Notes under the pieces: model-generated
Seen by the model: only the letters and a program-made list of their open reading frames with translations
Database searches by the model: none
What the model was told of the DNA's origin: nothing
Part shown: in pieces, positions 10,902 through 57,682 of the stretch
Numbering within the stretch: the first letter of the stretch is position 1
Layout: every line of letters starts with the position of its first letter
Program-made: the position numbers and the translations under genes
NCBI GenBank assembly: GCA_017475485.1
Contig: JAFVFO010000032.1
Span: forward strand, 16,658-80,657
Direction: 5' to 3'
DNA: 64,000 bases
From: Candidatus Gastranaerophilales bacterium
GTDB taxonomy: Bacteria; Cyanobacteriota; Vampirovibrionia; Gastranaerophilales; Gastranaerophilaceae

Positions 10902-11628
10902 CTTTGTTAATTCCTACAGTTTCAAATAATGAATCGGATAAATCTTCCTCGGAATCAGCCGTTAAGAATTTTCCGCTGGTCATTAATGCGGTGCATCTTA
11001 ATTGGTTATTTGCTTCAATATCTTGAACATCAAATGCAATTACATCTATTTTCACGTCATTTCTTGTTTTCATAAGGTTAATAACATAAGTACAAGGGCT
11101 TTCATCGCAATTTTCACCGCCGTCTGTTAAAAGAATTATATGTTTTTTGCCTGTAGTTCCGTTGAAATCGTTGTTTATGGCTTGTTTTAGAGAATATGTT
11201 ATAGGTGTCCAGCCGGTTGCTTTTGTGGAATAAAGGCTGGATAAAATATTTTGTGCATTATTAACCCCTAAAGGTACGGTTAAATTAGAAGCACTGCAGC
11301 CTTGAACATAGGTAAAGCCTGCTTTGTGGCCATATACTCTCAAGCCTGTTTTTATGTTTTTGGGAATTTTTGGTAAAATTTCAGCTAAAGTTGTTCTTGC
11401 GATTTCAACTTTTGTTTTGCCGTTTATTGTATCATTCATGGAATTTGAAAAATCCACTATGAAAAGAATTTGGCTGTCAGGCTTTGCGCGCTCAACGCTT
11501 TTTGAAACTTCCGTTAAATTCTCGGGATTATAAATTTTGTAATCATAATTTGTTTCGCTTGTACCTTTAAGATTAAATAAAAGCGCAATTAAAAGAGTGA
11601 GTGAAGATATTGTTATTGTTTTTTTCAT
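10870..11628 (-). CDS. Secreted von Willebrand factor A domain protein
   Basis: A 252-residue exported protein. An N-terminal signal peptide (residues 1-24, hydrophobic core SLTLLIALLFNL) is followed by one VWA domain with an intact metal-dependent adhesion site: DFSNS at 59-63, a downstream Thr and the LLTDGGENCDES loop. Several cysteines suggest disulfides. VWA domains of this layout mediate periplasmic or surface protein binding. The frame is open to an ATG at 11637, but that ATG lies within the TATAAT promoter box, so the ATG at 11628 is chosen. The glycosyltransferase gene overlaps its end. Confidence 0.8.
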   Translation of the reverse strand: MKKTITISSLTLLIALLFNLKGTSETNYDYKIYNPENLTEVSKSVERAKPDSQILFIVDFSNSMNDTINGKTKVEIARTTLAEILPKIPKNIKTGLRVYGHKAGFTYVQGCSASNLTVPLGVNNAQNILSSLYSTKATGWTPITYSLKQAINNDFNGTTGKKHIILLTDGGENCDESPCTYVINLMKTRNDVKIDVIAFDVQDIEANNQLRCTALMTSGKFLTADSEEDLSDSLFETVGINKDVRGSIKLPE

Positions 11629-11635
11629 AATTTGC

Positions 11636-11641
11636 ATTATA
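11636..11641 (-). promoter_or_regulatory. -10 box for the VWA gene (leaderless type)
   Basis: On the minus strand TATAAT is followed by seven bases (GCAAATT) and then the VWA ATG. No Shine-Dalgarno sequence fits between, so the transcript would begin at or beside the start codon. This is the same layout as in several other genes of the window, one base longer. Confidence 0.5.
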
Positions 11642-11666
11642 TATTGTAATTCCTTTTTAAAATACC

Positions 11667-12140
11667 TTATTTCATGCTAACCAAAGCGTCGTTAGACAGT
11701 TCATTTTTTATATCCGAAGCACTTACTACCAAAAGAGATGAAAATTCATCTTTTTTCAGGTATATTTTTTCAATTCCGGATTGCACAATAAATCTTTTAC
11801 ATAAAATACAGATAAAATCATGACCCCAAATATACATTGATGAACCCATACATCTATCTTGCCCTGCTTGAATAATGGCATTTTGTTCGGCGTGAATTGA
11901 ACGACAGGTTTCATATCTTGTTCCTGATTGAATGTTGTTTTTAATTCTGTAGCATTCCCCTAATTCCATGCAGGAAACTACCTTAGAAGGTACACCATTG
12001 TAGCCTGTGGCTTTTATTTTTTTGTCTGTGCCGACAATTACGGCCCCGACTTGCGCTCTTAGACAATTGGAACGCTTTGCAACAGTGCGGGCAATTTCTA
12101 TAAAATAATCATTCCAATCAATAGGTTTAATATTTTCCAT
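11667..12140 (-). CDS. dCMP/CMP deaminase family protein (ComEB-like)
   Basis: A zinc-dependent cytidine/deoxycytidylate deaminase of 157 residues that would convert dCMP to dUMP for dTMP synthesis. The catalytic HAE motif is at 83-85, and two cysteines in ICILC (111 and 114) complete the zinc site; the proline usual before the first Cys is replaced by Ile. The insertion rich in Cys (SCMELGECYRI) matches the dCMP deaminase subfamily, where it forms a second zinc site. The ATG is preceded by GGGAGAAGAA. ComEB of Bacillus is the same family and is found in a competence operon. Confidence 0.88.
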   Translation of the reverse strand: MENIKPIDWNDYFIEIARTVAKRSNCLRAQVGAVIVGTDKKIKATGYNGVPSKVVSCMELGECYRIKNNIQSGTRYETCRSIHAEQNAIIQAGQDRCMGSSMYIWGHDFICILCKRFIVQSGIEKIYLKKDEFSSLLVVSASDIKNELSNDALVSMK

Positions 12141-12325
12141 TTCTTCTCCCTTTTATAATAATTTAACATAACTTTAGCTAAAAAGCATGCCCTTAAATTA
12201 AAAAATATTCACAATAGCAGGTAATATTAAGAAATATTACATTTATACAATCATGCTAAAACATGGTCTAATTCATGATTTCAGCATGATTTTAAAAAAC
12301 TAAAAAATACGGCTTAATTAATTTT

Positions 12326-12353
12326 TTGCACCCTTAAAATAATAACTTATAAT
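12326..12353 (+). promoter_or_regulatory. Promoter of the yggS-sepF unit
   Basis: TTGCAC (12326-12331) and a perfect TATAAT (12348-12353) separated by 16 bases form a good sigma-70-type promoter. The expected transcription start is at or near 12360, which is itself an ATG opening a five-codon reading frame. Confidence 0.65.
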
Positions 12354-12359
12354 TGAAAT

Positions 12360-12377
12360 ATGAGCAAAAAGGAGTAA
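12360..12377 (+). other. Five-codon leader frame before yggS
   Basis: The frame reads ATG AGC AAA AAG GAG TAA (MSKKE). It begins exactly six bases after the TATAAT box, so it could be translated from a leaderless transcript. It contains the only GGAG near yggS and ends 14 bases before the yggS ATG, in a different frame. It may couple translation to yggS or may be chance. Confidence 0.3.
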
Positions 12378-12391
12378 TTAGAACTTTTAAA

Positions 12392-13033
12392 ATGTCAGTT
12401 AGGGAAAACTTAAATAGAATTTTAAAAGATATAGAAAATTACGATACAACGCTCATCGCAGTAACCAAATACTACGATATAGAAAAAATGATAGAAGCAT
12501 TTAATGCTGGGTTGAGGAATTTTGCTGAGAGCAAGGCAATTGAGAGTATTGAAAAAATCAGCAAAATAGATGATACAACAAGAAATCAATCGGTATATCA
12601 TTTTATTGGACATCTACAAACGAATAAAGTCAAATATGTTGTGGGGAATTTTGATTATATACATTCCGTAGATAGCCTAAAACTCGCACAATGTATAGAT
12701 TTAGAAGCTCAGAAAAAAGGTATTATTCAAAAAATCCTTATACAGGTGAACAATGCAAATGAGGAGCAAAAGTTTGGAATAGAGCCAAAAGAACTTGACA
12801 ATTTAATAAACGAAATGGCAAAGCTGAAATCCATTGAGCTAAAAGGACTTATGAACATAGCGCCATATTGTGTGCAGGAAAATGAATTGAGAAAACTATT
12901 TAGCGAAATGCGAGAACTCAAAGAAAGATACGGACTTCAAGAACTTTCAATGGGCATGAGCAATGATTACAAAATTGCACTTGAATGCGGAGCTACAATG
13001 ATACGTTTAGGCAGAATTTTATTTGAAAATTAA
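12392..13033 (+). CDS. yggS: YggS/PLPBP family pyridoxal-phosphate-binding protein
   Basis: A fold-type III PLP protein that helps keep the free PLP pool and amino-acid/keto-acid balance in order. About 213 residues. The PLP lysine lies in LIAVTKYYD. Also present are FAESKAIE, HFIGHLQTNKVKYV, IHSVDSLKLA, VNNANEEQKFGI, the phosphate-binding LSMGMSNDY and the C-terminal GATMIRLGRILFE. The frame is open to a TTG at 12353, but that codon overlaps the -10 box, so the ATG at 12392 is chosen; its GGAG is an unusual 17 bases upstream. sepF follows ten bases after the stop, the ylmE-ylmF order of Gram-positives and Cyanobacteria. Confidence 0.9.
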   Translation: MSVRENLNRILKDIENYDTTLIAVTKYYDIEKMIEAFNAGLRNFAESKAIESIEKISKIDDTTRNQSVYHFIGHLQTNKVKYVVGNFDYIHSVDSLKLAQCIDLEAQKKGIIQKILIQVNNANEEQKFGIEPKELDNLINEMAKLKSIELKGLMNIAPYCVQENELRKLFSEMRELKERYGLQELSMGMSNDYKIALECGATMIRLGRILFEN

Positions 13034-13043
13034 AGGAGATAAG

Positions 13044-13538
13044 ATGGCACTTTCAGAAAAAATCAAGGAAATTATTGGGGCATTGACCGAAACCCTAAAT
13101 CCAAGCGACGATTACATTGATGAATCAGATGTACAGGATGAGTTTTCACCTGAATATCCTACAGACAGCAATGCTGCATTGAAACCTGTGTTTACGGAAA
13201 CAAACCCGATTAGAAAAAGAGCAAACCTGAGAGTATTACCACAGCCTAAATCAGGAGCTTATGAAGTTGTAGTTATTGAGCCAAAAGCATATAACGAATC
13301 AATTTCAATTGTTGAAGCTCTAAAAGAAAGAAAAACAGTTATTTTAAACCTTCAATTATTAGACAGAGAACAATCTCAAAGAATAGTTGATTTCTTATGC
13401 GGTTGCACACATGCTCTTGACGGTTCGCAAAGAAAAATCGGCGAAAATGTATTCATCTTTACTCCATCAAATATAAACATTTCGCAAGAAATAATGAACT
13501 CTAAATTATCATCCGACGCCATGTGGACAAAAGCGTAA
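13044..13538 (+). CDS. sepF: Cell division protein SepF
   Basis: SepF polymerises on the membrane and links FtsZ to the division site. The 164-residue protein has an N-terminal amphipathic helix (MALSEKIKEIIGAL), an acidic linker (about 20-60) and the SepF core (about 75-155), with VVVIEPKAYNESISIVEALKE, RKTVILNLQLLD and DFLCGCTHALDGSQRKIGENVFIFTP. The ATG at 13044 is chosen because GGAG lies five bases upstream; the frame extends to a TTG at 13023 inside yggS. Its presence with yggS and without ftsA nearby fits a cyanobacterial-type division system. Confidence 0.93.
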   Translation: MALSEKIKEIIGALTETLNPSDDYIDESDVQDEFSPEYPTDSNAALKPVFTETNPIRKRANLRVLPQPKSGAYEVVVIEPKAYNESISIVEALKERKTVILNLQLLDREQSQRIVDFLCGCTHALDGSQRKIGENVFIFTPSNINISQEIMNSKLSSDAMWTKA

Positions 13539-13779
13539 GCCAGAGTGAAGTAAATTAAAACGTCGAGTTTTAATTTACGAAACAATTGATAGGCGACGTT
13601 TCAATGCCGTAAGCGAAGAATGAGCTGTGCGAATATGTGACGCAGAGTGCGGGTAATCGAGGCTGTGAGGAAGCAGTCGAACCCGGGTGAAATATGAAGA
13701 TGAAAAAATTTTAAAAGAACAAACAAGCCAAAGTGTTGGTTTGAATTATTTACGGAAAAATAGAGAGTTAAATTTTAAC
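13539..13779 (+). other. Structured, GC-richer intergenic element after sepF
   Basis: About 240 non-coding bases begin right after the sepF stop. A near-ideal hairpin occupies 13550-13578 (12-base arms GTAAATTAAAAC, five-base loop GTCGA). AACGTCG at 13559-13565 can alternatively pair with CGACGTT at 13594-13600. The following stretch to about 13690 is visibly more GC-rich than the genes around it and contains the AGGCGACGT motif seen in other intergenic elements of this window. It may be an RNA element, a repeat-family member or a 3' UTR. The last 80 bases are ordinary AT-rich DNA. Confidence 0.45.
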
Positions 13780-13810
13780 AAGGGATACAAAATTGTATCC
13801 CTTTTATTTT
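13780..13810 (+). terminator. Rho-independent terminator of yggS-sepF
   Basis: AAGGGATACAA and TTGTATCCCTT form an 11-base-pair stem with a two-base AA gap (13780-13803), followed by a T-rich run. It separates the sepF unit and its 3' element from grpE. Confidence 0.8.
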
Positions 13811-13889
13811 ATAAACTTTTTATAATTCCATGGGCACTCGACATTAATAATTCATAATTTATAATATAATTAAATAAAGGAGAATTATA

Positions 13890-14480
13890 ATGAATGACAC
13901 AAAAAACCCTTTTAAAGAACAACTAAAAGAAGATATCGTGCAGGAAGAACAAAATCCTGCAGAAACAGATAACCTTGAAGAAATCGAAGAAGAAACCAAT
14001 GAAGAAATTGTTGATGAAACAAATGAGCCTTCTCGGGATGAAAAATATGAAGAATTAAACAATAAATACATTCGTCTTGCCGCTGATTTCGATAATTTCA
14101 GAAAAAGAACTGCAACGGAAAAAGAAGAACTTTCAAAATATACTACAGCGGAAGTTTTGAAAAAATTAACCGCTTCGCTTGATACTTTTGACAGGGCAAA
14201 AGAAAGCCTTAAAGATATTGATAATCCTTCTACAATTAAAGAAGGCTACGAAGTTGCATATAAACAATTAACAGACGCATTAACAAAAATCGGTCTGGTT
14301 GAAATTGAAGCCTTAGGCAAGCCCTTTAATCCAAATGAGCATGAAGCAATTACGCAGGTTCAAACGGATGAATTTGAGCCTGATACAGTCGCTGTAGTTG
14401 CCCAAAAAGGATATAAATATCAAGATAAAATAGTTAGACCCGCACTGGTTGGAGTTGCAAGAAGCAAGGAAAATGAATAA
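13890..14480 (+). CDS. grpE: Nucleotide exchange factor GrpE
   Basis: GrpE releases ADP from DnaK in the Hsp70 cycle. The 196-residue protein has a long acidic, disordered N-terminus (1-55). A coiled-coil follows with the conserved [18 protein letters not shown] (about 63-80), then the beta domain with [24 protein letters not shown] and [31 protein letters not shown] precedes the ATG. dnaJ overlaps its stop codon by eight bases. dnaK itself is not in the window. Confidence 0.95.
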
Positions 14481-15606: not shown

Positions 15607-15617
15607 AGGAGAATAAA

Positions 15618-17069: not shown

Positions 17070-17071
17070 TT

Positions 17072-17656: not shown

Positions 17657-17682
17657 AAAGGCTCTTTTCAAAAGAGCCTTTT
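17656..17682 (+). terminator. Rho-independent terminator
   Basis: AAAAGGCTCTTTT and AAAAGAGCCTTTT pair perfectly over 13 bases with a one-base C between (loop in practice larger). The palindrome works on either strand and separates the grpE unit from the minus-strand small genes. Confidence 0.85.
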
Positions 17683-17749
17683 ATATAGTCTAGTAGCTTA
17701 CGCCCTGTATAATGTATCTTTGGGTTAAATCTTATAAGTGAAATCTTTT

Positions 17750-17890: not shown

Positions 17891-17943
17891 TTTCTCTTTT
17901 CCTCGTCTGATTGTTTAATTTTAAGAAGCCGTTCGTTTGTTTA

Positions 17944-19339: not shown

Positions 19340-20508
19340 ATTTTATAGGCTTTTTTATAAAATAACCATAAGCCTGTGGCGCTTATTATAATAACAGGAA
19401 GCCATGCGGCTAAAAATGGTGCAATTTTGCCTGATTCTCCAAGATTTAGCGATAATGCTCTTATAACATAATAAATAAAAATAATTACTATACTGAATAA
19501 AAAACCTCTGTTATATCTGACTCTTGGCGGAGTAATTCCCAAGGGCAGTCCTATCAAGGCAAGTGCCAAGGTTGTAATCGGAAGTGCTAATTTATCATAT
19601 AAATTAATTTGATATTCAAGGTAAACCTTTTTTTCAAGGTTTTGCTTCTGATTTTTAATATGTTTTAAAAGTTTAAAGAAATTAAATTCGCTTGTGCTTT
19701 CTTTAACCATTTCATTAACATCGCCAATTCCGAATGTAACGTCAGATTCTTCAAAAAGACTTGTATTAAAGAGTTTATCACCCTTTTGGGTATCTTTTGA
19801 AATTGTATATACAACGCCTTCTTTGAATTTCCACCCGTAATCAGAAGTTGTACCTTTTTTTGCTTGAATAATTTGAATATTGTTTGGTTTTGAAATATCA
19901 ATAACCGTAACATTGTTAAGAGTTTTATCTTTGCACCATTGCGCATAGAATAATCTTTTTAAAACCCCGTTTTTACTGATATCTTTAACCGTAAAATTCA
20001 TTTTATTTTCAGGGATATGCTTCTGCTCAAGCGAATAAATAGCCAAAGACTTTGACTGTATTGAAGTTGCGGGAACAATAAATTCATTAATAAAGAAACT
20101 TACAAACATCATAACAACGGCAAAGCAAAATATGGGGCGGGCAATGCGTTCTATGCTTATTCCGCAGGCTTTAAAAATTGTGATTTCCGATTTTAAACTT
20201 AAATCGTTAATTGTCATAACCGTTGCAAATAACATTGAAATAGGTATAGTTAAAACAATTACTTGAGGCAGGTTTAAAATTATCATCATTATTGCAATAT
20301 GAAAAGGAATTCCGTATAGGGAAATTTGTTTAATTAATTGGGTAAATGTTTCAGAGGCAAAAATAATAGATGTGAAAATAATAATGCCAAGCGTAAATAC
20401 GCTTAGAAGCTGGTTTAGAATGTATCTATCTAAAATGCTTAATTTATTAAATTCTTTTTTTATTCTTTGTTTTACGGAATAATATCTTTTTCTAAGGTTT
20501 AAAAACAT
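19336..20508 (-). CDS. LptF/LptG family LPS-export permease
   Basis: An inner-membrane permease of the YjgP/YjgQ family. With LptB it extracts lipopolysaccharide for transport to the outer membrane. The 390-residue protein has the family layout: LSILDRYILNQLLSVFTLG opening, two N-terminal helices, the conserved cytoplasmic LKSEITIFKACGIS segment, a periplasmic beta domain (about 150-280) and the final helices with ALPITTLALALIGLPLGI. The frame is open to 20577, but the ATG at 20508 is chosen because AAGGA lies four bases upstream; it overlaps the end of tyrA. It supports an outer membrane in this organism. Confidence 0.88.
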   Translation of the reverse strand: MFLNLRKRYYSVKQRIKKEFNKLSILDRYILNQLLSVFTLGIIIFTSIIFASETFTQLIKQISLYGIPFHIAIMMIILNLPQVIVLTIPISMLFATVMTINDLSLKSEITIFKACGISIERIARPIFCFAVVMMFVSFFINEFIVPATSIQSKSLAIYSLEQKHIPENKMNFTVKDISKNGVLKRLFYAQWCKDKTLNNVTVIDISKPNNIQIIQAKKGTTSDYGWKFKEGVVYTISKDTQKGDKLFNTSLFEESDVTFGIGDVNEMVKESTSEFNFFKLLKHIKNQKQNLEKKVYLEYQINLYDKLALPITTLALALIGLPLGITPPRVRYNRGFLFSIVIIFIYYVIRALSLNLGESGKIAPFLAAWLPVIIISATGLWLFYKKAYKI

Positions 20509-21292
20509 TTTGTCCTTGCTCATTATACATTTTTGAACGTTCTTTGGAAAGTTCCTTAAATATCTTGATTTTCTCATTATAAGATAAATTTTTCAAGTAA
20601 TTTAATTTTTCAATCATATTATTAAGGGCATTATCTATATTGTCCTTATTTAATTCCAGCATATCAGCACTCATTAAAGGGTTTGAAACTAATCTTGTCA
20701 TATCGCGAAAGCCTGATGAAGCTATATATTTTGAATTATCGTCAGCGCAGGAAAACAGGCCGTAAGCTAAAAACATTGGCAGGTGAGATATCATAGCACA
20801 CATATAATCATGCTTATTCATATCGGTTATAACCATATTAGCACCCGTATCTTCAATTATTTTTTTAGCAAGAGGATTGTCCTTTTCAACAAGCCATTTT
20901 GCCCCTTTAAATAAAAATTCTTCCGACGCCTCAAAACCCGTTTTTTCGCGCCCTGCCATAGGATGCGACATTATAAAATTATAATTAAATTTTTTATTTA
21001 AGAAATCTTTTTTAACGGAAGCGCAATCAAGCACTATGCAATCTTTTCTAACAATATTTTCTAATTTTTCCAGCATTTCAAGAGTTTTTGAAATAGGAGA
21101 ACATACAAAAACAATATCGCAATCTTTAATTATTTCAAGATTATCGGAAATATTTTCAGAATAATTAAATGCCTCTTTGGCTAAAGATGTTGAATAGCAA
21201 TATAAGTCGTATTTTTTACATAAGGCTTTTAAGATAGAACCGCCTATTAAACCGAGCGAAATAACTCCAACTTTTTGCACATTTTTTTCCAT
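20492..21292 (-). CDS. tyrA: Prephenate dehydrogenase
   Basis: Oxidative decarboxylation of prephenate (or arogenate) in tyrosine synthesis. 266 residues: N-terminal Rossmann domain with VGVISLGLIGGSILKAL, VFVCSPIS and IVLDCASVK, then the conserved MSHPMAGREKTGFEAS substrate-binding segment and a helical dimerisation domain (SHLPMFLAYGL). No chorismate mutase or ACT domain. The frame runs to a TTG at 21310, but that codon lies within the promoter, so the ATG at 21292 is chosen. lptF/G overlaps its end by 17 bases. Confidence 0.9.
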   Translation of the reverse strand: MEKNVQKVGVISLGLIGGSILKALCKKYDLYCYSTSLAKEAFNYSENISDNLEIIKDCDIVFVCSPISKTLEMLEKLENIVRKDCIVLDCASVKKDFLNKKFNYNFIMSHPMAGREKTGFEASEEFLFKGAKWLVEKDNPLAKKIIEDTGANMVITDMNKHDYMCAMISHLPMFLAYGLFSCADDNSKYIASSGFRDMTRLVSNPLMSADMLELNKDNIDNALNNMIEKLNYLKNLSYNEKIKIFKELSKERSKMYNEQGQNVFKP

Positions 21293-21298: not shown

Positions 21299-21304
21299 AT
21301 TATA
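21299..21304 (-). promoter_or_regulatory. Extended -10 promoter of tyrA (leaderless)
   Basis: The minus strand reads TGTTATAAT, a perfect TGnTATAAT extended -10, then six T bases, then the tyrA ATG. No ribosome-binding site can fit, so a leaderless mRNA is expected. Confidence 0.6.
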
Positions 21305-33892: not shown

Positions 33893-36139
33893 TTAAACTC
33901 CTAAGCTGATTAAAACATCCTGCGGATAAACTTCGTTAATTAATTCATTCGTTGCATCAATAATAAAGAATGATAAGTCGCCAAATTCAACACCTAAATC
34001 TTTAAATGGTATTTTTAATTCAACAACATCTTTATATACAATTTTAGAGCCTTTAGATACAACTTGTGACCATAAACCCCACTGGGTTGCTTTGTTAAAG
34101 AACATTTTGGATATTTTTTTGCTGTCTATAACAAATCTTATTTCATGTGAAAAATTATTTTTAATTATAGGGTAAATTATATTTTCATTTTTGCTGACAA
34201 AACGAATTGGAGAATAGTTTTGAGCATTATTTACGGCAAAATATATCGCGATTTGATTTTCTAAATTATCAATAGACATTTTTATGGAATTTTTATTTAA
34301 TTCCAATCTGAAATATACATTTTCTTCGTCACATCCGAAATAAATATTTTTAATTAAACGCGTAACATTGGATGTGGGGCTGTCGGGTACGAAAATTAAC
34401 CCTGCATGCTCCCATTCATTATTTTTATCTTGTACATCACAAGCCAAACTCGGTGTAATATGCCCCGATGGGCTTCTTAAGGGGCGAGTAGCCGTTGTAA
34501 CAAGCGGGCTTAGCAGGCATTCAGGTACATTCAAGCCTAAAATTTCATAAACATTCATTAAATGACGTCTGAATAAGTAATCGAAAACATCATCATTTTT
34601 TGATTCGTTTGGTTCTCCGTACCACCAGTACCAATCAGAGCCTTGAGCTATCAGGAGCTCTTGATATGCAAGGCGGATTTTATCTTTAATTTTCAGTTTT
34701 TCTTCGCGGGATTTATCATCAGTAAAAACGGAATTTTTATATTTTTCCCAATCTTTATGGGCCTGTGATAAATAAAGCCAAGCAATGTTTTTAGTACCTT
34801 CACCAATCCAAAGGTCAAAGTTTCTGTTTATCCATGAACCAGGTTTTAAATTATCAAGGATTTCAGGCGGGTTGTTATCAATAAAATCGCTAACCGTAAC
34901 TGTTTGCAAGGTGTCATCAGAACAAATTAAGCCATAGAGCGTATCTAAGAATTCGCTTCCGTCATTAAGATATGTTTCCCAGCAATTTTCCCCGTCAAGT
35001 GCAATTGTTAAGATGTGATTTTCGCGGGGTGAATTTTGCAATTTTGATTGAATTGTTTTTATTTTTTCATACATATCATTTGCGGCAATTTTGTAATCAT
35101 AGTTGCCGTAGCCGAAGTTCAAAAGATTTGCAAAAAATGAATCTGCAAACAAAAGATTTAAAGGATTTTTATTTTTTGTTTTGTAGTTAATATTAAGGTT
35201 GTATGGATTTTCAAGATTTCCTTCAAAATCTCTTATAAATTCTTTTTTTAAAGATTTTGATAAAATTCCTTCATCTAATACACTCCATTTAAACCCTGAT
35301 TTAGAAAGTAATTCCGCAGTTTTAGAACAAACGCACTGCTCGGATAGCCACATTCCTTTTGGTTTTCTGTCAAATATTTCAACATATTTTGTAATAGCGC
35401 GCTCGATTTGTTCTTTTGCGTCATTCGGGTATGAAAAATCCGATGGCAGATTTTCAAAATTTTTAATTTCTTTATGTTTAAAATCAAGTAATAGCGGTAA
35501 AATAGGGTGATAATAGGGGCTTATTGAAACTTCTATTTTATTTTCTTCTTGATATTTTTTATATTCGCTTAGAATTCTTTTGATTATATCCAGTTGAATT
35601 TCATAGATTTTTTTTCTGTCAGATAAATTATAGCCTTCTTGTTTGTTTAATAATTCGCCTAATTCCTTATAATCTGCTATAAACATATCATCTATCCAGC
35701 ATAAGGTATAATTGGCCATAATATCTGAATATTCTTGAAGTGAAAAAATATTTGTATTTAAATCGCGTGCATTTGCTCTTTTGTTATATAAATCAGTGAA
35801 ATAAGGCCTTTTGAGCACCATGTTTTTGTAATTCAAATCAAAATAATTATTTAAAATAAAAGTTTTATCTTTTTCATCTAAATCTTTTTCATCTTTTAAA
35901 AGAAGTATTTGATGAATATCCTGAGCGCCGTTTGCATATTTTTGCAAAGAATTTAACAAAATAGGAGAAAAATTAAAATTCAGCTTCAAATTAGAAAACT
36001 TATCCATTCTTTTAAGCATATCCAGATAATCCTTTGAAGCGTGCAGTCTTACCCAGGGCAATAAAAATTCACTTGTATAATTTTGCTGGTAATTTGGTTG
36101 GTGAAAATGCCATATAAATGCTATGCTTAATTTCTTCAT
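33893..36139 (-). CDS. Glycoside hydrolase family 57 protein
   Basis: A 748-residue GH57 enzyme (alpha-amylase, amylopullulanase or 4-alpha-glucanotransferase type) acting on alpha-glucans. Region 1 WHFHQPNY is at residues 10-17. The nucleophile region KGMWLSEQCV has Glu267, and the acid/base region ALDGENCWETY has Asp382. The C-terminal 200 residues form an additional beta-rich domain of the kind found in GH57 amylopullulanases. No signal peptide, so probably cytoplasmic and concerned with glycogen; glgC is elsewhere in the window. The frame extends six codons further to a TTG inside the promoter, so the ATG at 36139 is chosen. Confidence 0.9.
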   Translation of the reverse strand: MKKLSIAFIWHFHQPNYQQNYTSEFLLPWVRLHASKDYLDMLKRMDKFSNLKLNFNFSPILLNSLQKYANGAQDIHQILLLKDEKDLDEKDKTFILNNYFDLNYKNMVLKRPYFTDLYNKRANARDLNTNIFSLQEYSDIMANYTLCWIDDMFIADYKELGELLNKQEGYNLSDRKKIYEIQLDIIKRILSEYKKYQEENKIEVSISPYYHPILPLLLDFKHKEIKNFENLPSDFSYPNDAKEQIERAITKYVEIFDRKPKGMWLSEQCVCSKTAELLSKSGFKWSVLDEGILSKSLKKEFIRDFEGNLENPYNLNINYKTKNKNPLNLLFADSFFANLLNFGYGNYDYKIAANDMYEKIKTIQSKLQNSPRENHILTIALDGENCWETYLNDGSEFLDTLYGLICSDDTLQTVTVSDFIDNNPPEILDNLKPGSWINRNFDLWIGEGTKNIAWLYLSQAHKDWEKYKNSVFTDDKSREEKLKIKDKIRLAYQELLIAQGSDWYWWYGEPNESKNDDVFDYLFRRHLMNVYEILGLNVPECLLSPLVTTATRPLRSPSGHITPSLACDVQDKNNEWEHAGLIFVPDSPTSNVTRLIKNIYFGCDEENVYFRLELNKNSIKMSIDNLENQIAIYFAVNNAQNYSPIRFVSKNENIIYPIIKNNFSHEIRFVIDSKKISKMFFNKATQWGLWSQVVSKGSKIVYKDVVELKIPFKDLGVEFGDLSFFIIDATNELINEVYPQDVLISLGV

Positions 36140-36145: not shown

Positions 36146-36151
36146 ATTATA
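36146..36151 (-). promoter_or_regulatory. Extended -10 promoter of the GH57 gene (leaderless)
   Basis: Minus strand: TGTTATAAT, then CAGGCT, then the GH57 ATG. The six-base spacing puts the transcription start at the start codon; the bases TTGTGTTATAAT are identical to those before tyrA. Confidence 0.6.
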
Positions 36152-37795: not shown

Positions 37796-38569
37796 CTATA
37801 TAAGCGGAATATTTAAAAATTCGTCCACATTAAACTTCATAAATGCTTCTGCGAAGTCACATTTTGTTTGAATAGAGCGAAATGCGTTCAACCCTATTGT
37901 TTTATCAATTAATCCGCTAAACTTATCAGGCGGATAATAAATATTAAGCATACGCTTTTTAGTTTCAATAATATGGCTTATATCAACATAGCAATCATAA
38001 GTACACAAAGAAAAATCAGACTCGAACATTATAATTTTCAAATCTTCCTTGTGTTCTTTTTCTTGTAAAATCTTTTTAAAATGTTCTAAAAGCGCAAGTG
38101 TATCCTTATTGTTGTCATATACGCTCGGTATAAAAATATAATCAACCTCTGAAATATCAATTTTTTTAAATGTTGAATAGTGATTTTTTAAGGTATTTGT
38201 ATCAATATCAAAAATCTTATAACCTTTTGTGCGCATAGTGCGCATAACTTCCTGAAACTGCTGTTTTTTAATGCTTGCAGATTCAACAGGGTCAAATTCG
38301 GGAAGTGCATTTGAACCGTTTGTCAAACATAAAACTTCAAAATTTTTAGGAAACTGTGCAATCAGCCCGCCAAGCCCCTTGATTTCCGCGCCCGGATATT
38401 GCGATAATACAAGACATTTGGTATTAATATTTACCTTGAATTGTTCAAAAGAAGATTTAACCCCGAATAAAAAATAAAAAATCAGTTTATTATAGTTCAA
38501 GTCCTTTGCTATACTTGAATTTTTTAGCAAGTCGAGAGTTTTATTTTTTAAATTCACTATTGAATCCAT
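37796..38569 (-). CDS. PIG-L-like protein lacking the zinc-site motif
   Basis: A 257-residue protein with the outline of the PIG-L/LmbE deacetylase fold. A first strand-loop CLVLSQYPGAEIKGLGGLI is followed by VLCLTNGSNA, VMRTMRTKGY and a C-terminal KKRMLNIYYPPDKF. In active enzymes the first loop reads AHPDDE and a later loop carries another His for zinc. Here these are QYPGAE and IPSVYDNNKD, so the metal ligands appear absent. It may be a non-catalytic member or a different activity. The ATG at 38569 is preferred to the one at 38575 because it stands six bases after a TAAAAT box. Confidence 0.6.
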   Translation of the reverse strand: MDSIVNLKNKTLDLLKNSSIAKDLNYNKLIFYFLFGVKSSFEQFKVNINTKCLVLSQYPGAEIKGLGGLIAQFPKNFEVLCLTNGSNALPEFDPVESASIKKQQFQEVMRTMRTKGYKIFDIDTNTLKNHYSTFKKIDISEVDYIFIPSVYDNNKDTLALLEHFKKILQEKEHKEDLKIIMFESDFSLCTYDCYVDISHIIETKKRMLNIYYPPDKFSGLIDKTIGLNAFRSIQTKCDFAEAFMKFNVDEFLNIPLI

Positions 38570-38575: not shown

Positions 38576-38581
38576 ATTTTA
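38576..38581 (-). promoter_or_regulatory. -10 box of the PIG-L-like gene (leaderless)
   Basis: Minus strand TAAAAT, then ATGAAG, then ATG at 38569. This is the same six-base spacing as in front of tyrA and GH57. The first of the two ATGs would be only at the edge of the transcript. Confidence 0.4.
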
Positions 38582-38643: not shown

Positions 38644-38649
38644 TATAAT
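38644..38649 (+). promoter_or_regulatory. -10 box of the 38.6 kb small gene (leaderless)
   Basis: TATAAT is followed by TTTTGT and then the ATG at 38656. The six bases contain no ribosome-binding sequence. Confidence 0.55.
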
Positions 38650-42777: not shown

Positions 42778-43034
42778 TATTCCTGAACTAAATATCTTTC
42801 TTCCTGAAGTGCAACACCTACAATTCTGTCAGACAAAATTGAAGCCTTCCTAATTGGGCCAATAGGTTCAAATTCAAGCATTTTAACTTCCGTAGAATTT
42901 ATTATTGCCTTAAGGTCATCATAAATTTTTTGTGCATTATCAAAATACAATACTATTGGGGTTGCCATATCTTTGCAAAATACCAAGACAGCATTTCTCA
43001 CCTGTATTTTTCCTTGAACCTGCTGTTGAGCCAT
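42777..43034 (-). CDS. Conserved-looking small protein between tatD and tlyA
   Basis: An 85-residue protein: KIQVRNAVLVFCKDMATPIV, LYFDNAQKIYDDLKAIINS, then KMLEFEPIGPIRKASILSDR. The alternation of beta strands and a helix suggests a small alpha/beta domain. GAGGAGGAAATATA is a strong ribosome-binding site. It overlaps tatD and tlyA by one base on each side, so it is part of a tightly coupled unit. Function unknown. Confidence 0.6.
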   Translation of the reverse strand: MAQQQVQGKIQVRNAVLVFCKDMATPIVLYFDNAQKIYDDLKAIINSTEVKMLEFEPIGPIRKASILSDRIVGVALQEERYLVQE

Positions 43035-43807
43035 TATATTTCCTCCTCGATTTTATCACTTAATCTAAAAAATTTTCTTGCATTGTTTGAAGTTGCAACA
43101 CAAACACTATCATAAGTTATATTTCTTAATTTAGCAATTTCTTTTGCTGTAAAACCAATATATTTCGGCGAATTTTCCTGTCCCCTGAACGGGTGCGGGG
43201 TCAAATAGGGGCAGTCTGTTTCAAGCATTAAATCGTTTATATCCACTTCTTGAGCGACACGCTTGGGCTCAAGCGCATTTTTAAAAGTTACAACCCCGCC
43301 AAGAGCAATTTTATAACCTAAAGAACAACATTCTTTCATAAATTCAACACTTCCGGAATAGCAGTGCAGTAAGACGTTTTGTGCATTTGTCGATTTTAAA
43401 ATTTCCAAAGTATCAAAATGTGCATCTCTATCATGCACTACAATCGGCAAATTAAGCATTTTAGCTATTTCAATTTGATTTATAAAACAATTTTTTTGTA
43501 TATCTTTATTTTCCTTGCTGTAGTGATAATCCAGCCCGATTTCGCCAATTCCTACAACTTTCTCGTCTTTTGCAAATTCTATTATTTTTTTGGCTGTTGA
43601 ATCACTGAATTTTTCACAATCTTCAGGGTGCACTCCTAAAAGTGCATAAGTTTTATCAAACCTGTGGCACAGGTCTAAAATAGGCTCAAAATCAGCTTCG
43701 GAAGCACTTGGAATAATTATTTCATCAACTCCTGAATTGCGCGCTTCGATAATACCCATTTCAGGGTTTTCAAGCATATAAATATGTGCGTGTGTATCTA
43801 TTAACAT
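43034..43807 (-). CDS. tatD: TatD family metal-dependent DNase
   Basis: A 257-residue TIM-barrel nuclease. Metal-binding DTHAHIY is at residues 4-10; GIGEIGLDYHYSKENKDIQK, PIVVHDRDA, LHCYSGSVEFM and LETDCPYLTPHPFRGQENSP supply the other ligands. It acts in DNA repair or quality control. It is first in the tatD-small gene-tlyA-SEC-C unit and has a leaderless-type promoter. Confidence 0.92.
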   Translation of the reverse strand: MLIDTHAHIYMLENPEMGIIEARNSGVDEIIIPSASEADFEPILDLCHRFDKTYALLGVHPEDCEKFSDSTAKKIIEFAKDEKVVGIGEIGLDYHYSKENKDIQKNCFINQIEIAKMLNLPIVVHDRDAHFDTLEILKSTNAQNVLLHCYSGSVEFMKECCSLGYKIALGGVVTFKNALEPKRVAQEVDINDLMLETDCPYLTPHPFRGQENSPKYIGFTAKEIAKLRNITYDSVCVATSNNARKFFRLSDKIEEEI

Positions 43808-43813: not shown

Positions 43814-43819
43814 ATTTTA
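43814..43819 (-). promoter_or_regulatory. -10 box of tatD (leaderless)
   Basis: Minus strand TGCTAAAAT (extended -10 form), then TTAATT, then the tatD ATG. Confidence 0.55.
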
Positions 43820-49075: not shown

Positions 49076-49083
49076 TTTTTGAC

Positions 49084-51582: not shown

Positions 51583-51598
51583 ATTTGCTCCTTCAAAA

Positions 51599-51889: not shown

Positions 51890-51891
51890 GG

Positions 51892-53220
51892 TTATTTTCC
51901 AAAAAATACGTCCAATGCGCATTTTAAAAATGCAAACATATCTTTTATTGTATCAAGCGGATTTCTGCCGAATATAAAATTATACGCAAATTTCCTTATT
52001 TGTGAAGATTTTGAAGTGCAATTAGCACTTGTTATTATTTCAAAAAATTCTTTTATTTTGTTGGGATAATAAACGCTTAATGAATTTGAGCGTTTATACA
52101 AATTGTTAATTATATTTCTGTAAGAATATAAATCTTTTAAAATAAATGAATTTTCTAAATATTTTCTGTAAACAGACAATGTTGAAGCACTGAAATCTTC
52201 TTTTTCAAGGGCATGGAGCGCCGCTTTTCCTGCAAGTTTGCCCGAAATTAGCGCAAAATTAGTTCCTTCAAAATGAACCCCGTTGACAAAGCCTGCGGCA
52301 TCCCCCGCTACAATTACACCGTCAGAATATAAGGCGGGAACTTTTTTATATCCGCCTTCCGGAATTAAATGTGCACTATATTCTATCATTTCGCCATTTT
52401 CAATTAACGGTGCGATATGTGGGTGTTTTTTTACTTCATCTAAAACATCTGAAATATTTAATTTATTTTTAGATAAATCTTCTAAATTTACCCCCACACC
52501 AAGTGCAACAGAATCCTTAAAGGTATATAAAAAGCTCATCATAAAAAGATTTTTGTAGCCTTTTAATTTTCCGAAATCAGAACCGAAGTATTGCTTATTA
52601 ATTCCGTTTGAAAGGTCTTCTTTTAAGTTAAATTTTGTTTCTATTGTTTTTTTATCAAATTTATAAACTTCTTTTGCGCTTAATATAAAATCATGACGCT
52701 TGAAATCTTGCCTTAGACCGATTTTGCGCGCTAATAAGGAATTAACACCGTCAGCTAGAATTACAACAGGCGCTAAATATTCTTCTATACTTGTTTTAAC
52801 GCCTATTACCCTGTTTTCATTTGTCACTAAATCAACAACTAAAGTATCGGGGCAAAAATAAACTCCTTTTGATTTGACAAGCTCGATTAATTGTTTTTCT
52901 AAGTTAAATCTTTTTATTGCATAAGCATGGTTATTTGATGAATTTTTATAGGTTAATTCAAATGAAGAATCTTCTGATAAAAATGCCCAAGTGTGAGAAT
53001 TAATAACCCTTTCATAAGAAATTTTATCAAAATCTTCTTGGAAAACTTCTTTTAAGGCATGGGTATAAACAGCGCCCCCATACATATTCTTAGAACCCGC
53101 ATAGTGAGAACGCTCTAATAATACTACTTTGCGCCCTGCGCGTGCAACTTCAAGCGCCGCTGAAATCCCTGCCGGCCCGCCGCCTACAACTATAACATCC
53201 GCATTATATTCTATATTCAT
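51892..53220 (-). CDS. fixC: FixC-like electron transfer flavoprotein-quinone oxidoreductase
   Basis: A 442-residue FAD protein of the ETF-QO/FixC family. N-terminal VIVVGGGPAGISAALEVARA, KNMYGGAVYTHAL, and C-terminal VIVAGDAAGFVNGVHFEGTNFA are family hallmarks. It would accept electrons from an electron-transfer flavoprotein (FixAB) and, with FixX, reduce quinone or ferredoxin in bifurcation. FixA and FixB are not in this window. The leaderless-type promoter lies directly upstream. Confidence 0.88.
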   Translation of the reverse strand: MNIEYNADVIVVGGGPAGISAALEVARAGRKVVLLERSHYAGSKNMYGGAVYTHALKEVFQEDFDKISYERVINSHTWAFLSEDSSFELTYKNSSNNHAYAIKRFNLEKQLIELVKSKGVYFCPDTLVVDLVTNENRVIGVKTSIEEYLAPVVILADGVNSLLARKIGLRQDFKRHDFILSAKEVYKFDKKTIETKFNLKEDLSNGINKQYFGSDFGKLKGYKNLFMMSFLYTFKDSVALGVGVNLEDLSKNKLNISDVLDEVKKHPHIAPLIENGEMIEYSAHLIPEGGYKKVPALYSDGVIVAGDAAGFVNGVHFEGTNFALISGKLAGKAALHALEKEDFSASTLSVYRKYLENSFILKDLYSYRNIINNLYKRSNSLSVYYPNKIKEFFEIITSANCTSKSSQIRKFAYNFIFGRNPLDTIKDMFAFLKCALDVFFGK

Positions 53221-53226
53221 AGTTTT

Positions 53227-53232
53227 ATTTTA
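53227..53232 (-). promoter_or_regulatory. -10 box of fixC (leaderless)
   Basis: Minus strand TAAAAT, then AAAACT, then the fixC ATG; no ribosome-binding sequence between. Confidence 0.5.
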
Positions 53233-53271
53233 CAGGTTACTAACTCAAAAAACAATAGAAAAATATATAAT

Positions 53272-53925
53272 TTATTTTGTTTCGTGGTAATCCTTTTCGG
53301 TATTAACATTCCATATTTCATTTTTATTGTTTATTTTTTTAACAATACTTTTTGCTGCTAAAAAACCTGTCATCATACTATGATCCATATTGTTATATCT
53401 ATGTTGTCCGTTTCTGCCTATACAATACAAATTGTCTATCGAATTAAGATAATTAATCACTTTATCAATATCTTTATAAGAACCGAAATATGCAGGATAT
53501 GCTTTTTCAACGCATTCTCTATGAAAATCAATTATATCTTCTTTTGAATTAATTATTTTCATTTTAATTAATTCTTTTGCCGCAAAATCGAGGGTTTCAT
53601 CTTCACTCATATTCCAGAAATCGTCATTTTCTCTACAAAAATATTCAAGTCCAATCCATTGCGTATTTTTATAATCTTTGACCAAATAAGGAGACCAATT
53701 GTTAAAAAACTGCATTCTTCCCATTTTAACATTTTTATCTTGAACATATATCCAGCAATCAGGGATTCTGTTATTTAGAGTTTTTATTTTAGTTTCATTT
53801 TTTAAATTAATATCTTTAACTAAAATTCCAATTGTAACAAAATCTCTGTAAGGCAAATTTTGTGCAATTTCTTTAATGTTATCCGGTGCGTTATTAATCG
53901 CAGTAATTAAATCCTTTAGAGGCAT
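53272..53925 (-). pseudogene. C-terminal part of a flavoprotein split by a stop codon
   Basis: 217 residues from MPLKDLITAINNAP to the natural stop. They continue, in the same frame and without a gap, the protein encoded by the preceding 53926-54816. The C-terminus carries the second FAD-binding loop (LYCIGRNGQHRYNNMDHSM). The ATG stands directly behind the TAA, so re-initiation could make a separate chain. On its own it lacks the FAD-binding fold. Either the gene is inactivated, or two chains assemble. Confidence 0.6.
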
Positions 53926-54816
53926 TTAAGAAATAATATAATCGGTATTTAGCGTTATTTTTTTATTATCCGAATTAATATATGAAATATTTTTACTTTC
54001 AAAGTTTAATTCAACAACATTAGAATTAAATATTATTTTACCGCCCGCCTGCTCAATTTTTTTGGCAACTTCTTCCCATAATTGTCCGGGGCCAAATTTT
54101 GGATACATAAATTCTTCAATTAAAGAGGTTTCAACTTTATGATTAAAAAACGGGAATATTTTATGGAATATATCTTTTAAAATACCGAATATAGATAATC
54201 CCTTAACCCTTTGACGGCCCCAATCGGGAGAAATATCTTTAGGATGTATTCCCCAGAGTTTTTCTGTGTAATTTTCAAAAAACATTGAGTATAATTTTTG
54301 TCCGAAGCGATTTATATAAAAATCTTCAAGCGAGTTTTCTTCTCTTTTAAAAATAACCGATTTTAAATAACTGAATCCTGAAAGAATAGTTGTTATAAAC
54401 CCCATATTTTTTATGGTTTTAAAATTAATTTTAACGGGGTAATCAAAAAATTTTCTGTTAAAAAAAATTCTTGAAACCCTTTGCCTTTTAAGCATTACTT
54501 TATCTTCTTTTTCCGGATTTAAACCGTTTAGGGGTAGTTGCTTTTCTCTTTTTAATAAAATATCATCAAAAGTTTGACTGTTCTGCATAGGTAAAATATT
54601 AAGCCACCATTTAACAATATTTTCATCTTTTGAAAAAAATCTATGCCCCCCGATATCCATTCTGTTGTCTTTGTGGCAAACGGTTCTTGAGATACCTCCT
54701 ATGGTATTTGTTTTTTCAAGTATTACGACATCATAATCCGATGATTGTTTTAATATTTCATAAGCTGCGCTTAGCCCTGCAGGGCCTGCACCGATTATAA
54801 CGATTTGTTTTTTCAT
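53926..54816 (-). pseudogene. N-terminal part of an NAD(P)/FAD amine-oxidase-like flavoprotein, cut by TAA
   Basis: 296 residues. Dinucleotide-binding [19 protein letters not shown] is at residues 5-23, then GGISRTV and [11 protein letters not shown] of the protoporphyrinogen oxidase/UDP-galactopyranose mutase-like group, and [12 protein letters not shown]. It ends ...DYIIS-TAA and the next codon is ATG for MPLKDL. Related proteins usually read through as IISSMPL, so TAA probably replaces a Ser codon (TCA to TAA, one base). Restored length would be about 514 residues. It overlaps the GT-C gene by four bases and belongs to a glycan cluster. Confidence 0.7.
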
Positions 54817-56528
54817 TTATTTTTTCCTGATTTTTCCCATGCTGTCATAATTTTTATCGTTATTTTTTTTGCTAAATGACGTAAATCGTAACATCTTTCG
54901 ATATAGCGTGGTTCAATTTCTTTTAGGTTTAGTTTTTTAGCAAGTTCTTTTTCGACCAATATATTTAAAACACGAATTCGCCCTACAGTTCCTTTTTTAA
55001 TTACCGAGTCATTATTGCTATATACAACTATATATTCTTGTTTATTTGATTCATCTTTATAAACTGCTCTATAATCGGCATCTCCGACAATAACATCCGG
55101 CAGGCCGTGATTTCTCCATTTTTTATATTCATTTTCTATTTGCTTTTTGGTATTTAACCTGCTATAAGCATACTGTTTTTTAGAATCTTTATCATTAAAA
55201 TTATAAAATATATTTTTATCAAAATAAGGTAATATTAAAACCCCTGCCCCCAGGAGATTTGTTGAATATTCATGTTCATAATTCCAGCCCACAAGAATAT
55301 TATATTTATCAAGGTTGTATTTTTTGATAAACATTGCTTCTTCTTTTCCGATATAGTATCTTAAAAATACATCTAAAACGGAAGATTTTATAGACCAAAA
55401 CAAACTTGTAACCAAACTAATTGCTATAAATAGGGTAAATAGCTTATTAATTGTATTGTTTTTGCGATTTTTATTATCTGTTTCTTTTTTATTTTGGAAT
55501 ATTAACCAAAATATAAATATAAAATATGGAGCAAATACACCAATATGCTGCATTGAAAAATACTTTGTGATAATCAATGCAGTCGGAATATAAGTAATTA
55601 GAAATGTTTGCAATATAAAATCTTTATTTTTTGAATAAAAATATATAAAACCCCAAATTAAAATTCCGATAGGTATATTTAAAATTAATTCATAAAATGC
55701 AAATTGATGAAATTCAAGAGCATCGCACACATCTGAAAAAAAACAATCAACAGGTAAAATGAAGAAAGTATATAAAATTTTTATAAAAATAGAATTTTCG
55801 CTTTTTACATTTGCAGCAATTGTGTCAGAAGCCGGAAAGATTGTTGAAACAATTAAAACATAACAAATTCCAAGTATTATGCAGGAAATATAAAATTTTG
55901 AAAATTTAAAACATTTCTTTTTTATTGCCTCAAGAAACCATGCCAAAGCCAAGAATGAAGATATAACAAATGAATAAGGATGAGTTAAGGCAAGAAATAT
56001 AAGTGCAATAGAATATGTAATCGGTTTTTCATGTCTTTTTTTATAAAAAATTGCAATAGCGCAAAATGCAAGCATGACCATACAATACGGCCTTGAAATA
56101 ATACCGTTTTGATAAAAAAGAAAATAAGTATATGGTAATAAAACCCTTATAATTCTTGAAAAAGGGCTTTTAAGAATTATAAAAAACGTTGCTGTATATG
56201 AAAAAACAAAAGAAACAGATAGCAATGTTGTTTCGTAGGGAAAATTGTTTTTTGCAAATATAGATAATATCAAATGCCATAATGGCGGATGTCCTTCGTA
56301 ATGCGGTAAGTAAAATAATATATCATGATATGATGCCGATTTTGCAATCTGCCAGGCTTGTGCTTCGTCATACCAGGGTTCATGGAAATATCCGAAAAAG
56401 AAAAATAAAACAGGAAATAGAACTAATGCGATTATTTCAGGAGTATAATTCGATATTTTTTCAAAATTTTGTGTAAATTTTTGAATTTTATCTATAAACC
56501 CGATAACAATAGAATTCTTTTCAGACAT
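54813..56528 (-). CDS. Large membrane glycosyltransferase-like protein (GT-C)
   Basis: A 571-residue protein with about ten to twelve hydrophobic helices and a soluble C-terminal domain (about 410-571). The first loop [18 protein letters not shown] holds the acidic pair expected at a GT-C catalytic site, followed by [14 protein letters not shown], a conserved feature of this group. It probably transfers a sugar from a polyprenyl phosphate. First gene of the minus-strand unit with the split flavoprotein, divergent from the GT2-GtrA gene. Confidence 0.75.
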
Positions 56529-56534
56529 AGATAG

Positions 56535-56540
56535 ATTATA
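56535..56540 (-). promoter_or_regulatory. -10 box of the GT-C gene (leaderless)
   Basis: Minus strand TATAAT, then CTATCT, then ATG. One of two divergent leaderless-type promoters in a 65-base intergenic region. Confidence 0.6.
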
Positions 56541-56581
56541 TTACAATGAATTACTATATTGCAACTTGATTAATATAATTA

Positions 56582-56587
56582 TAAAAT
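56582..56587 (+). promoter_or_regulatory. -10 box of the GT2-GtrA gene (leaderless)
   Basis: TAAAAT, then TATTCT, then ATG at 56594. It faces the GT-C promoter in the same short intergenic region. Confidence 0.5.
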
Positions 56588-56593
56588 TATTCT

Positions 56594-57682
56594 ATGCAAA
56601 CTCTTAGCTTAGTTATACCTGTTTATAATGAAGAAAAATCGCTTAATGATATTGTTGGGCAAACATCAGAGCTTCAAGAAGATTTAGAAAATATAAAACT
56701 TGAAATCATTATAGTTGATGATTGCTCAACAGATAACAGTTATAAAATTGCAAAAAGCCTTGAAGGGGAAAATATTAAAGTTTTTCGCCACTTTAAAAAC
56801 CAAGGAAAAGGAGCTTCCTTAAAAACCGGTTTTTTGCATGCAACGGGCGATTTTATAGGTGTGCAAGATGCGGATATGGAATATAATCCAAAAGATTATC
56901 TTAAATTATTAAAACCGTTATTGGAAAATAAAGCTGATGTTTGCTACGGTTCAAGATATTTATTGCGTGATGAGCGCAGAGTTTTGTATTTTTGGCATAC
57001 GTTTATGAATAAATGTTTAACATATTTAACAAATATGTATTCAAACCTTGATATAACAGATATGGAAACCTGTTATAAATTATTCAAAAAAGATGTTATA
57101 AAAAGTATTCTTCCAAAATTAAAAGAAAAACAATTTGGCTTTGAACCGGAAGTTACAATGTATGTTGCGCAAGGAAAATATAGAGTTTATGAATGTGCAA
57201 TTCATTATAACCCAAGAACCTATGAAGAAGGTAAAAAAATAAAGCCTAAAGACGGATTTCACGCGCTTTATTGTATTTTGCATTATGGAGCTCATATGGC
57301 GTCCGTTCCAATGCAATTTATTTTATATGTTATAATAGGCGGAATTTCGGCCGTTATAAATATTTTATCATTTTTAATATTTATAAAAATAGGTTTATCT
57401 GTATTTATAAGCGTGTGGAGTGCTTTTATAGCTGCTTCTGTTGCAAATTACCTTTTATGTATTGCATTGTTATTTAAACATAAAGCAAGATTTTCAACAT
57501 TTAATGAAATTTTAGCCTATATACTTACTTTGATTATTATGGGAAGCATTGATTATTACTGCACATATTTGCTTTTAATGCTAAGTTTTAATAATTTTTG
57601 GGCAAAAGCATTCTCAAGCCTGATAGGTGTTATAGGCAACTTTTTATTCAGAAAATATTTTGTATTCGGAAAATTAAAATAA
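56594..57682 (+). CDS. GT2 glycosyltransferase fused to a GtrA domain
   Basis: 362 residues. The N-terminal GT-A domain (1-225) is DPM1-like, with SLVIPVYNEEKSL, IIIVDDCSTDNSYKI, NQGKGASLKTGFLHATGDF and the metal-binding QDADMEYNP. The C-terminal 120 residues are four hydrophobic helices of the GtrA type (VIIGGISAVINILSFLIF ... NFLFRKYFVFG). It would make a polyprenyl-phosphate sugar and help flip it across the membrane, supplying the GT-C enzyme encoded divergently. Such fusions are known but not universal. Confidence 0.88.
   Translation: MQTLSLVIPVYNEEKSLNDIVGQTSELQEDLENIKLEIIIVDDCSTDNSYKIAKSLEGENIKVFRHFKNQGKGASLKTGFLHATGDFIGVQDADMEYNPKDYLKLLKPLLENKADVCYGSRYLLRDERRVLYFWHTFMNKCLTYLTNMYSNLDITDMETCYKLFKKDVIKSILPKLKEKQFGFEPEVTMYVAQGKYRVYECAIHYNPRTYEEGKKIKPKDGFHALYCILHYGAHMASVPMQFILYVIIGGISAVINILSFLIFIKIGLSVFISVWSAFIAASVANYLLCIALLFKHKARFSTFNEILAYILTLIIMGSIDYYCTYLLLMLSFNNFWAKAFSSLIGVIGNFLFRKYFVFGKLK

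Follow-up and report, generated by a model that had tools for sequence, protein, structure and literature searches.

A -10-like box six bases ahead of ATG points to leaderless genes in a Gastranaerophilales genome

Introduction

A TANNNT hexamer about 12 bp upstream of the start codon has been interpreted as the -10 element of leaderless genes, and in low-GC genomes this signal turns into TAtAAT, in several of them with a TG peak ahead of it (Zheng et al. 2011, PMC3160421). That survey reports leaderless genes in 207 of 953 genomes; its list of groups does not name Cyanobacteria, and it describes many cyanobacterial genomes as using neither Shine-Dalgarno sequences nor leaderless genes. Here we analyse a stretch of 64,000 nucleotides (the window) from Candidatus Gastranaerophilales bacterium (assembly GCA_017475485.1, contig JAFVFO010000032.1, positions 16,658 to 80,657), in which several genes carry TATAAT or TAAAAT separated from their ATG by six bases. 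An earlier note, made from the letters of this stretch, had taken these boxes as a sign of widespread leaderless genes. Gastranaerophilales are relatives of cyanobacteria that do not photosynthesise and live mostly in the gut.

The best described systems differ in how much they rely on leaderless genes. The leaderless share in Deinococcus and Mycobacterium exceeds 20% and reaches about 60% (PMC9031893), and the StartLink study reports leaderless transcription in 21.6% of the bacterial species it surveyed, giving Cyanobacteria as an example of a group whose mode of initiation is unknown (PMC9581028). Within the cyanobacterial phylum leaderless transcripts do occur: a map of Synechococcus elongatus UTEX 2973 contains 19 start sites judged leaderless (PMC6091082), and a survey of nucleotide biases cites reports of a high leaderless fraction in Cyanobacteria, stating that the biases themselves are not simply attributable to leaderless mRNAs (PMC5397173). 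Unlike the biases treated in that survey, the signal described below is position-specific, promoter-like and conserved in spacing. It shares its spacing, its TAtAAT form and its TG peak with the TA-led leaderless genes of PMC3160421; unlike the cyanobacterial genomes characterised there, this genome uses Shine-Dalgarno sequences and, by our reading, leaderless starts as well. The earlier note knew of no description for this lineage, and in a library of open-licence papers we likewise found none linking leaderless genes with Melainabacteria, Gastranaerophilales or Vampirovibrio, so that leaderless initiation would here be extended to an order related to cyanobacteria.

Materials and methods

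The source draft genome comprises 1.72 Mb in 66 contigs, is 89.67% complete and has a GC content of about 32%. Its FixC, a single protein with 68% identity to the FixC of a Candidatus Gastranaerophilales genome, was used to place it in this lineage. Gene starts were studied in a sample made up of the window and 20 further stretches (398 kb) of the same genome, 462 kb together. Genes were called by a script blind to upstream signals with a minimum of 60 residues; 396 of the 397 called genes had sufficient upstream DNA and were kept. Divergent genes and genes behind a gap of at least 60 bp were classed as first-of-unit (n = 200), those behind a gap of less than 20 bp as intra-operon (n = 138), and 58 had intermediate gaps. 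Boxes were scored with the loose word TANNNT and the stricter words TAWDAT, TAWAAT and TATAAT, where -12 denotes a six-base gap to ATG; the 43 genes with a box at -12 or -13 are called boxed. Gene starts were randomised by mononucleotide shuffling, whereas dinucleotide shuffles were used in PMC3160421.

For four window genes (tyrA, fixC, tatD and a GH57 gene), orthologue upstream DNA was collected from 30 relatives, own genome included. With loci limited to the 30 best matches, orthologues outside the genus were the best 27 of 49 family matches for fixC and the best 27 of 55 for tyrA, plus 11 each from other families, and the fixC counts omit loci L009-L011. The Pfam scan covered 8 of the 9 boxed genes of the window and 20 of the other 34.

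Results and discussion

The box is strongly enriched at gene starts and essentially at a single offset. Counted over the whole window, the loose pattern TANNNT-N6-ATG is not in excess (64 occurrences against a shuffle mean of 71.9, sd 8.2). The stricter TAWAAT stands at -12 of 13 of the 2029 window ATGs on both strands, and 8 of these 13 sites are called starts, where 0.35 were expected from the 55 called ATG starts (P = 2e-10); the excess is restricted to gene starts, and the raw TANNNT count was rejected as evidence. The 462-kb sample gave the same picture, with TAWAAT at -12 of 30 of 367 ATG starts (2.3 expected, P = 6.5e-26). The whole genome contains 117 TATAAT-N6-ATG sites, compared with 49 for the reversed-pattern control and 62 for TATAAT-N10-ATG. 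Of the 200 first-of-unit genes, 23 have TAWDAT at -12, against a mean of 4.4 per offset over -45 to -20 (P = 4e-10); -13 follows with 9, every remaining offset has at most 8, and the counts at -11, -14 and -15 are 2, 0 and 1. Internal in-frame ATGs, as a control, gave 13 of 2353. Shuffling the last 22 nt, a control of the kind that the earlier note had proposed, yielded a mean of 2.7 and a maximum of 9 in 2000 rounds. Inside operons the box at -12 is near background (2 of 138), and it is found in 8 of the 58 genes with intermediate gaps, a class that includes tyrA, tatD and fixC. Here, too, as in the TA-led leaderless genes already described, the signal belongs to first-of-unit and not to intra-operon genes, and divergently transcribed genes carry it particularly often (31 of 118 boxed, about 5 expected by chance).

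These numbers confirm that the boxes are real and far above chance, and they bound how far the proposal of widespread leaderless genes can be taken. Boxes at -12 or -13 precede 43 of all 396 genes, where about 14 are expected (7.0 per offset over -40 to -20), and 32 of the 200 first-of-unit genes, about 9 of these by chance. Leaderless candidates thus amount to about 7% of genes, or at most 11% if the local background is close to zero, which the counts at -14 and -15 suggest. The commonest signal is a Shine-Dalgarno core, found in 201 of 396 genes overall and in 90 of 200 first-of-unit genes, with a peak at -9 to -13 in first-of-unit and intra-operon genes alike. The interpretation in the earlier note is therefore partly supported: position, promoter anatomy and orthologues speak strongly for it, and "widespread" has to mean some 7-11% of genes. 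This share, in a low-GC genome, differs from that of Deinococcus and Mycobacterium, which the genome resembles in having leadered genes beside those whose transcripts would start with a 5'-terminal AUG. ATG is the start codon of 41 of 43 boxed and 326 of 353 other genes; a preference of leaderless genes for AUG has been reported for some species (PMC9031893). By Pfam, the candidates include housekeeping genes, namely those for cysteinyl-tRNA synthetase, adenylosuccinate lyase, MnmE, CoaE and TyrA.

Sigma-70 extended -10 promoters have TGn directly ahead of the -10 element, a TTGACA-like -35 element lies about 17 nt away, and transcription usually starts at an A seven bases past the box with a pyrimidine at -1. 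The boxes look like such promoters. TGn precedes 19 of the 43 boxes, compared with 6.7% of the 6538 such hexamers in the sample (P = 1e-11), and TTG stands at spacing 17 in 16% of them, compared with 2.4% of all hexamers; a mixed control of boxes 20-50 nt upstream of Shine-Dalgarno genes was intermediate (TGn 11 of 69, TTG 10%). T occupies -1 in 38 of 43 boxed genes, versus 40 of the 90 first-of-unit genes with a Shine-Dalgarno core and 32 of the 78 remaining ones. Because the T at -1 is followed by an A that lies seven bases past the box, as at the usual sigma-70 start, the ATG is likely to be the start of transcription.

The spacing is conserved in orthologues of tyrA and fixC. All 19 genus members, own genome included, have the tyrA box at spacing 6 (17) or 7 (2), at protein identities of about 47-56%; in six of them (L128, L129, L134, L139, L142 and L145) ungapped placing puts the ATG about four codons inward, with the box again six bases ahead of it. 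Outside the genus (n = 38), tyrA counts as leaderless in 14 cases, as Shine-Dalgarno-led in 15 and as other in 9. The fixC box likewise stands at -12 (13) or -13 (6) in 19 of 19 genus members. Two other genes are more variable. A TATAAT-like box near the ATG of the GH57 gene is kept in the genus, with spacing 6 or 7 in 8 of 19 members, and tatD divides into 10 of 18 members with TANNNT at -12, 4 with a Shine-Dalgarno core and 4 with neither; by the stricter TAWDAT, 5 of 18 count. Some genes thus firmly keep the exact spacing, and others do not.

Orthologues of fixC outside the genus (n = 38) were found in two leader states: 28 have a Shine-Dalgarno core, 6 are leaderless by a lenient rule and 4 are neither. 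In 23 of the 28 Shine-Dalgarno-led genes the nearest TAWDAT lies 18-37 nt ahead of the start, and 8 of the 28 start with GTG, versus ATG in all 19 boxed genus members. Upstream of fixC in L197, L212 and L213, a leader containing a Shine-Dalgarno core comes after TTGTATAAT, and in L187 and L208 the same TTGTATAAT lies immediately ahead of a six-base gap and ATG, as does ATGTATAAT in L201; the two states would seem to share a promoter. On a tree of 57 FixC proteins the leaderless label needs at least four changes. One supported branch separates 22 rows, which hold 21 of the 25 leaderless ones and one other row; the remaining leaderless rows are L204 and L206, with uncertain starts, L179, with a TTG start and a doubtful box, and L201. 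In our judgement the main clade and L201 are the firm leaderless lineages, that is, two of the changes. Leaderless in one clade, led by a Shine-Dalgarno sequence in neighbouring groups and apparently served by a single promoter, fixC offers a natural experiment in which the cost and control of each mode could be tested.

Across genomes, TATAAT-N6-ATG outnumbers TATAAT-N10-ATG in 99 of 104 genomes of the family (11965 vs 7846 sites) and in 3 of 4 further genomes from the order or class; elsewhere in the phylum the relation is reversed, N6 exceeding N10 in 30 of 126 genomes (3555 vs 4727 sites). Matches occurred in all of 146 separately drawn genomes of the order, and families f2 and f4 showed no excess over the reversed pattern. 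Gene-start profiles gave 10 boxes at -12/-13 against 4.7 in a further family member (G124). Farther out, G013, from a different family of the order, has 4 TATAAT at -13 against 0.42 and 1 TAWDAT at -12, and two genomes of family f8, in the same class, have 4 at -12 (background 0.73) beside counts of 3 at several offsets close by; in both cases the offset was picked post hoc. The signal is firm for the genome itself and for the conserved genes; across the family it is likely, and farther afield it is only suggested.

Given its position, its promoter anatomy and its conservation, we consider it very probable that -10 boxes at -12 in Gastranaerophilales give rise to leaderless transcripts, with the start point read from the sequence. 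A housekeeping, sigma-70-type promoter with a TATAAT or TAAAAT -10 element, often preceded by TGn and sometimes by a TTG-like -35 element, would act in this genome and, variably, in the family. RNA polymerase would take the A of ATG as +1, directly behind the T at -1 and seven bases past the last base of the box; the transcript would have no leader, and translation would begin at its 5'-terminal AUG, presumably with a 70S ribosome as on known leaderless mRNAs. Genes such as fixC would switch state by gain or loss of a short Shine-Dalgarno leader between the start codon and a retained promoter, the direction of change being as conjectural as the identity of the promoter. We tentatively extend this to a broader proposal that we regard as possible: leaderless transcription in Gastranaerophilales may be a gene-specific, inherited and selected state, switched by insertion or deletion of short Shine-Dalgarno leaders downstream of a fixed promoter, and this non-photosynthetic order may have retained both initiation modes where photosynthetic cyanobacteria largely lost both. 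Gene-start callers that rely on Shine-Dalgarno sequences may misplace starts in such genomes.

Several findings weigh against leaderless transcription at these boxes. First, since the 5' ends are deduced from sequence, so is leaderlessness itself. Second, the absence of a Shine-Dalgarno core from the gap, claimed in the earlier note and found in all 43 boxed genes, is nearly forced because the box covers the position of that core; we rejected mutual exclusion of box and Shine-Dalgarno core as evidence for this reason. Third, the -13 class is weak by itself (9 vs 4.4, P = 0.037), and the box at -13 of the gene at 53272-53925, which lies within an operon at a gap of 0, is probably due to chance. 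Lastly, the signal is uneven among close relatives: N6 exceeds N10 in 5 of 7 genomes of the genus, with G089 (73 vs 96) and G093 (92 vs 94) as the other two; the gene profiles of relatives are small, with 5 of the 11 boxes at -12 in the genus pool (against 3.8) supplied by G089; and in G095 (1 at -12 against 0.8) and G120 (2 against 1.1) a peak is slight or absent.

Of the other explanations, the one that survives best, though we think it unlikely, is that these genes have ultra-short leaders of 1-6 nt without a Shine-Dalgarno sequence and with loose spacing; it overlaps with the leaderless reading and may hold for the GH57 gene, whose box is at another spacing than 6 or 7 in 11 of the 19 members of the genus, mostly 5-12 bases away, with a Shine-Dalgarno core in 0 of 19. 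Boxes at -13 and a gap of 8 in the fixC of L209 also fit loose spacing, and they are opposed by the sharpness of the peak at -12, by the T(-1)A(+1) match to a start at the A and by the invariable 6 or 7 bases in fixC and tyrA. It is very improbable that the boxes are promoters but translation begins farther downstream, the first ATG being misassigned: start calls are computational, yet in the genus rows orthologue starts align with the ATG without displacement in 18 of 19 cases for fixC and 13 of 18 for tatD. Starts farther downstream that have a Shine-Dalgarno sequence to themselves were seen in 0 of 43 boxed genes, a weak test given 1 of 90 in the control. Chance TATAAT-like words near ATG in a genome of 32% GC, for which the whole-window count of the loose pattern could be quoted, have practically no weight as an explanation, since the excess is limited to the starts of non-operon genes and essentially to one offset, a profile that contradicts such an artefact, and since a genome of 33.8% GC from the phylum outside the class (G251) has no excess at -12/-13 (2 vs 3.2 expected).

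The ten sites that the earlier note had listed in the window are exact to the letter, nine with a six-base gap and that of the VWA gene with seven; a further one, ahead of coaE, had been overlooked (Table 1). Two of its readings were not borne out. The five-codon mini-frame before yggS, considered as a leaderless upstream frame, is present in 0 of 18 genus relatives, looks like a coincidence and was rejected; yggS of these relatives has a box starting 54-71 nt upstream in 17 of 18 and a Shine-Dalgarno core in 13 of 18. Among nine yggS loci outside the genus, a near-identical pair (L282/L283) has box-N7-ATG at -74, which we read as chance. The name "PIG-L-like" for the product of 37796-38569 found no Pfam support, the only match being to BAAT_C and below cutoff. 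The mini-frame and the 53-residue frame are not among the called gene starts, for which the minimum was 60 residues. For the VWA gene the start caller picked an earlier ATG at 11637 that overlaps the box; read from 11628, the predicted protein begins with MKK and a hydrophobic stretch that resembles a signal peptide.

Table 1. Boxes and one -35-like hexamer ahead of start codons in the window
Feature	Position	Strand	Start codon and gene	Remarks
TAAAAT at -12 of coaE	5146..5151	+	ATG 5158	gap AAAGGT, purine-rich; Pfam CoaE
TATAAT, seven bases to ATG of VWA gene	11636..11641	-	ATG 11628	sequence match
TATAAT of likely yggS promoter	12348..12353	+	ATG of five-codon frame six bases on; yggS start 12392	
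TATAAT at -12 of tyrA	21299..21304	-	ATG 21292; gene 20492-21292	TGn precedes; Pfam PDH_N/PDH_C
TATAAT at -12 of GH57 gene	36146..36151	-	ATG 36139; gene 33893-36139	TGn precedes; Pfam Glyco_hydro_57
TAAAAT at -12 of second ATG	38576..38581	-	ATG 38569; gene 37796-38569	sequence match
TATAAT at -12 of 53-residue frame	38644..38649	+	ATG 38656	without Pfam match
TAAAAT at -12 of tatD	43814..43819	-	ATG 43807; gene 43034-43807	TGn precedes; Pfam TatD_DNase
TAAAAT at -12 of fixC	53227..53232	-	ATG 53220; gene 51892-53220	
TATAAT at -12 of GT-C-like gene	56535..56540	-	ATG 56528	protein without Pfam match
Palindromic TTGCAA, -35-like hexamer of GT-C/GT2 divergent pair	56559..56564	.		18 nt to minus-strand box, 17 nt to plus-strand box; consensus match only
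TAAAAT at -12 of GT2-GtrA gene	56582..56587	+	ATG 56594	Pfam Glycos_transf_2, GtrA

Some genomes show other spacings. TATAAT-N10-ATG exceeds the N6 pattern not only in G089 but also in G202 (83 vs 25) and G204 (110 vs 26), which may reflect another promoter spacing or a repeat. Conversely, six genomes of the phylum outside the class (G152, G154, G166, G170, G174 and G254) have spacing 6 at least 1.5 times as often as spacing 10. Of two picked for this excess, G170 has no box at -12 among 11 first-of-unit genes and G174 has 2 TANNNT at -12 against 0.46 among 48 genes, both small samples.

Compact arrangements were also seen. Co-directional genes have a box at -12 or -13 in 7 of 41 cases at gaps of 20-60 bp and in 1 of 73 at gaps of 60-400 bp. 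Divergent pairs with both members boxed number 4 of 59, with 4.1 expected by chance. In the GT-C/GT2 pair (56528-56594), whose genes lie 65 bp apart, the single TTGCAA is placed as if it were the common -35 element of two leaderless promoters, a consensus match that is weakened by the number of promoter-like sites in this region (27, against a shuffle mean of 25.9). Another pair, at L025:17257-17298, has its genes 40 bp apart and TATAAT at -12 of both, forming what would be a very compact double promoter.

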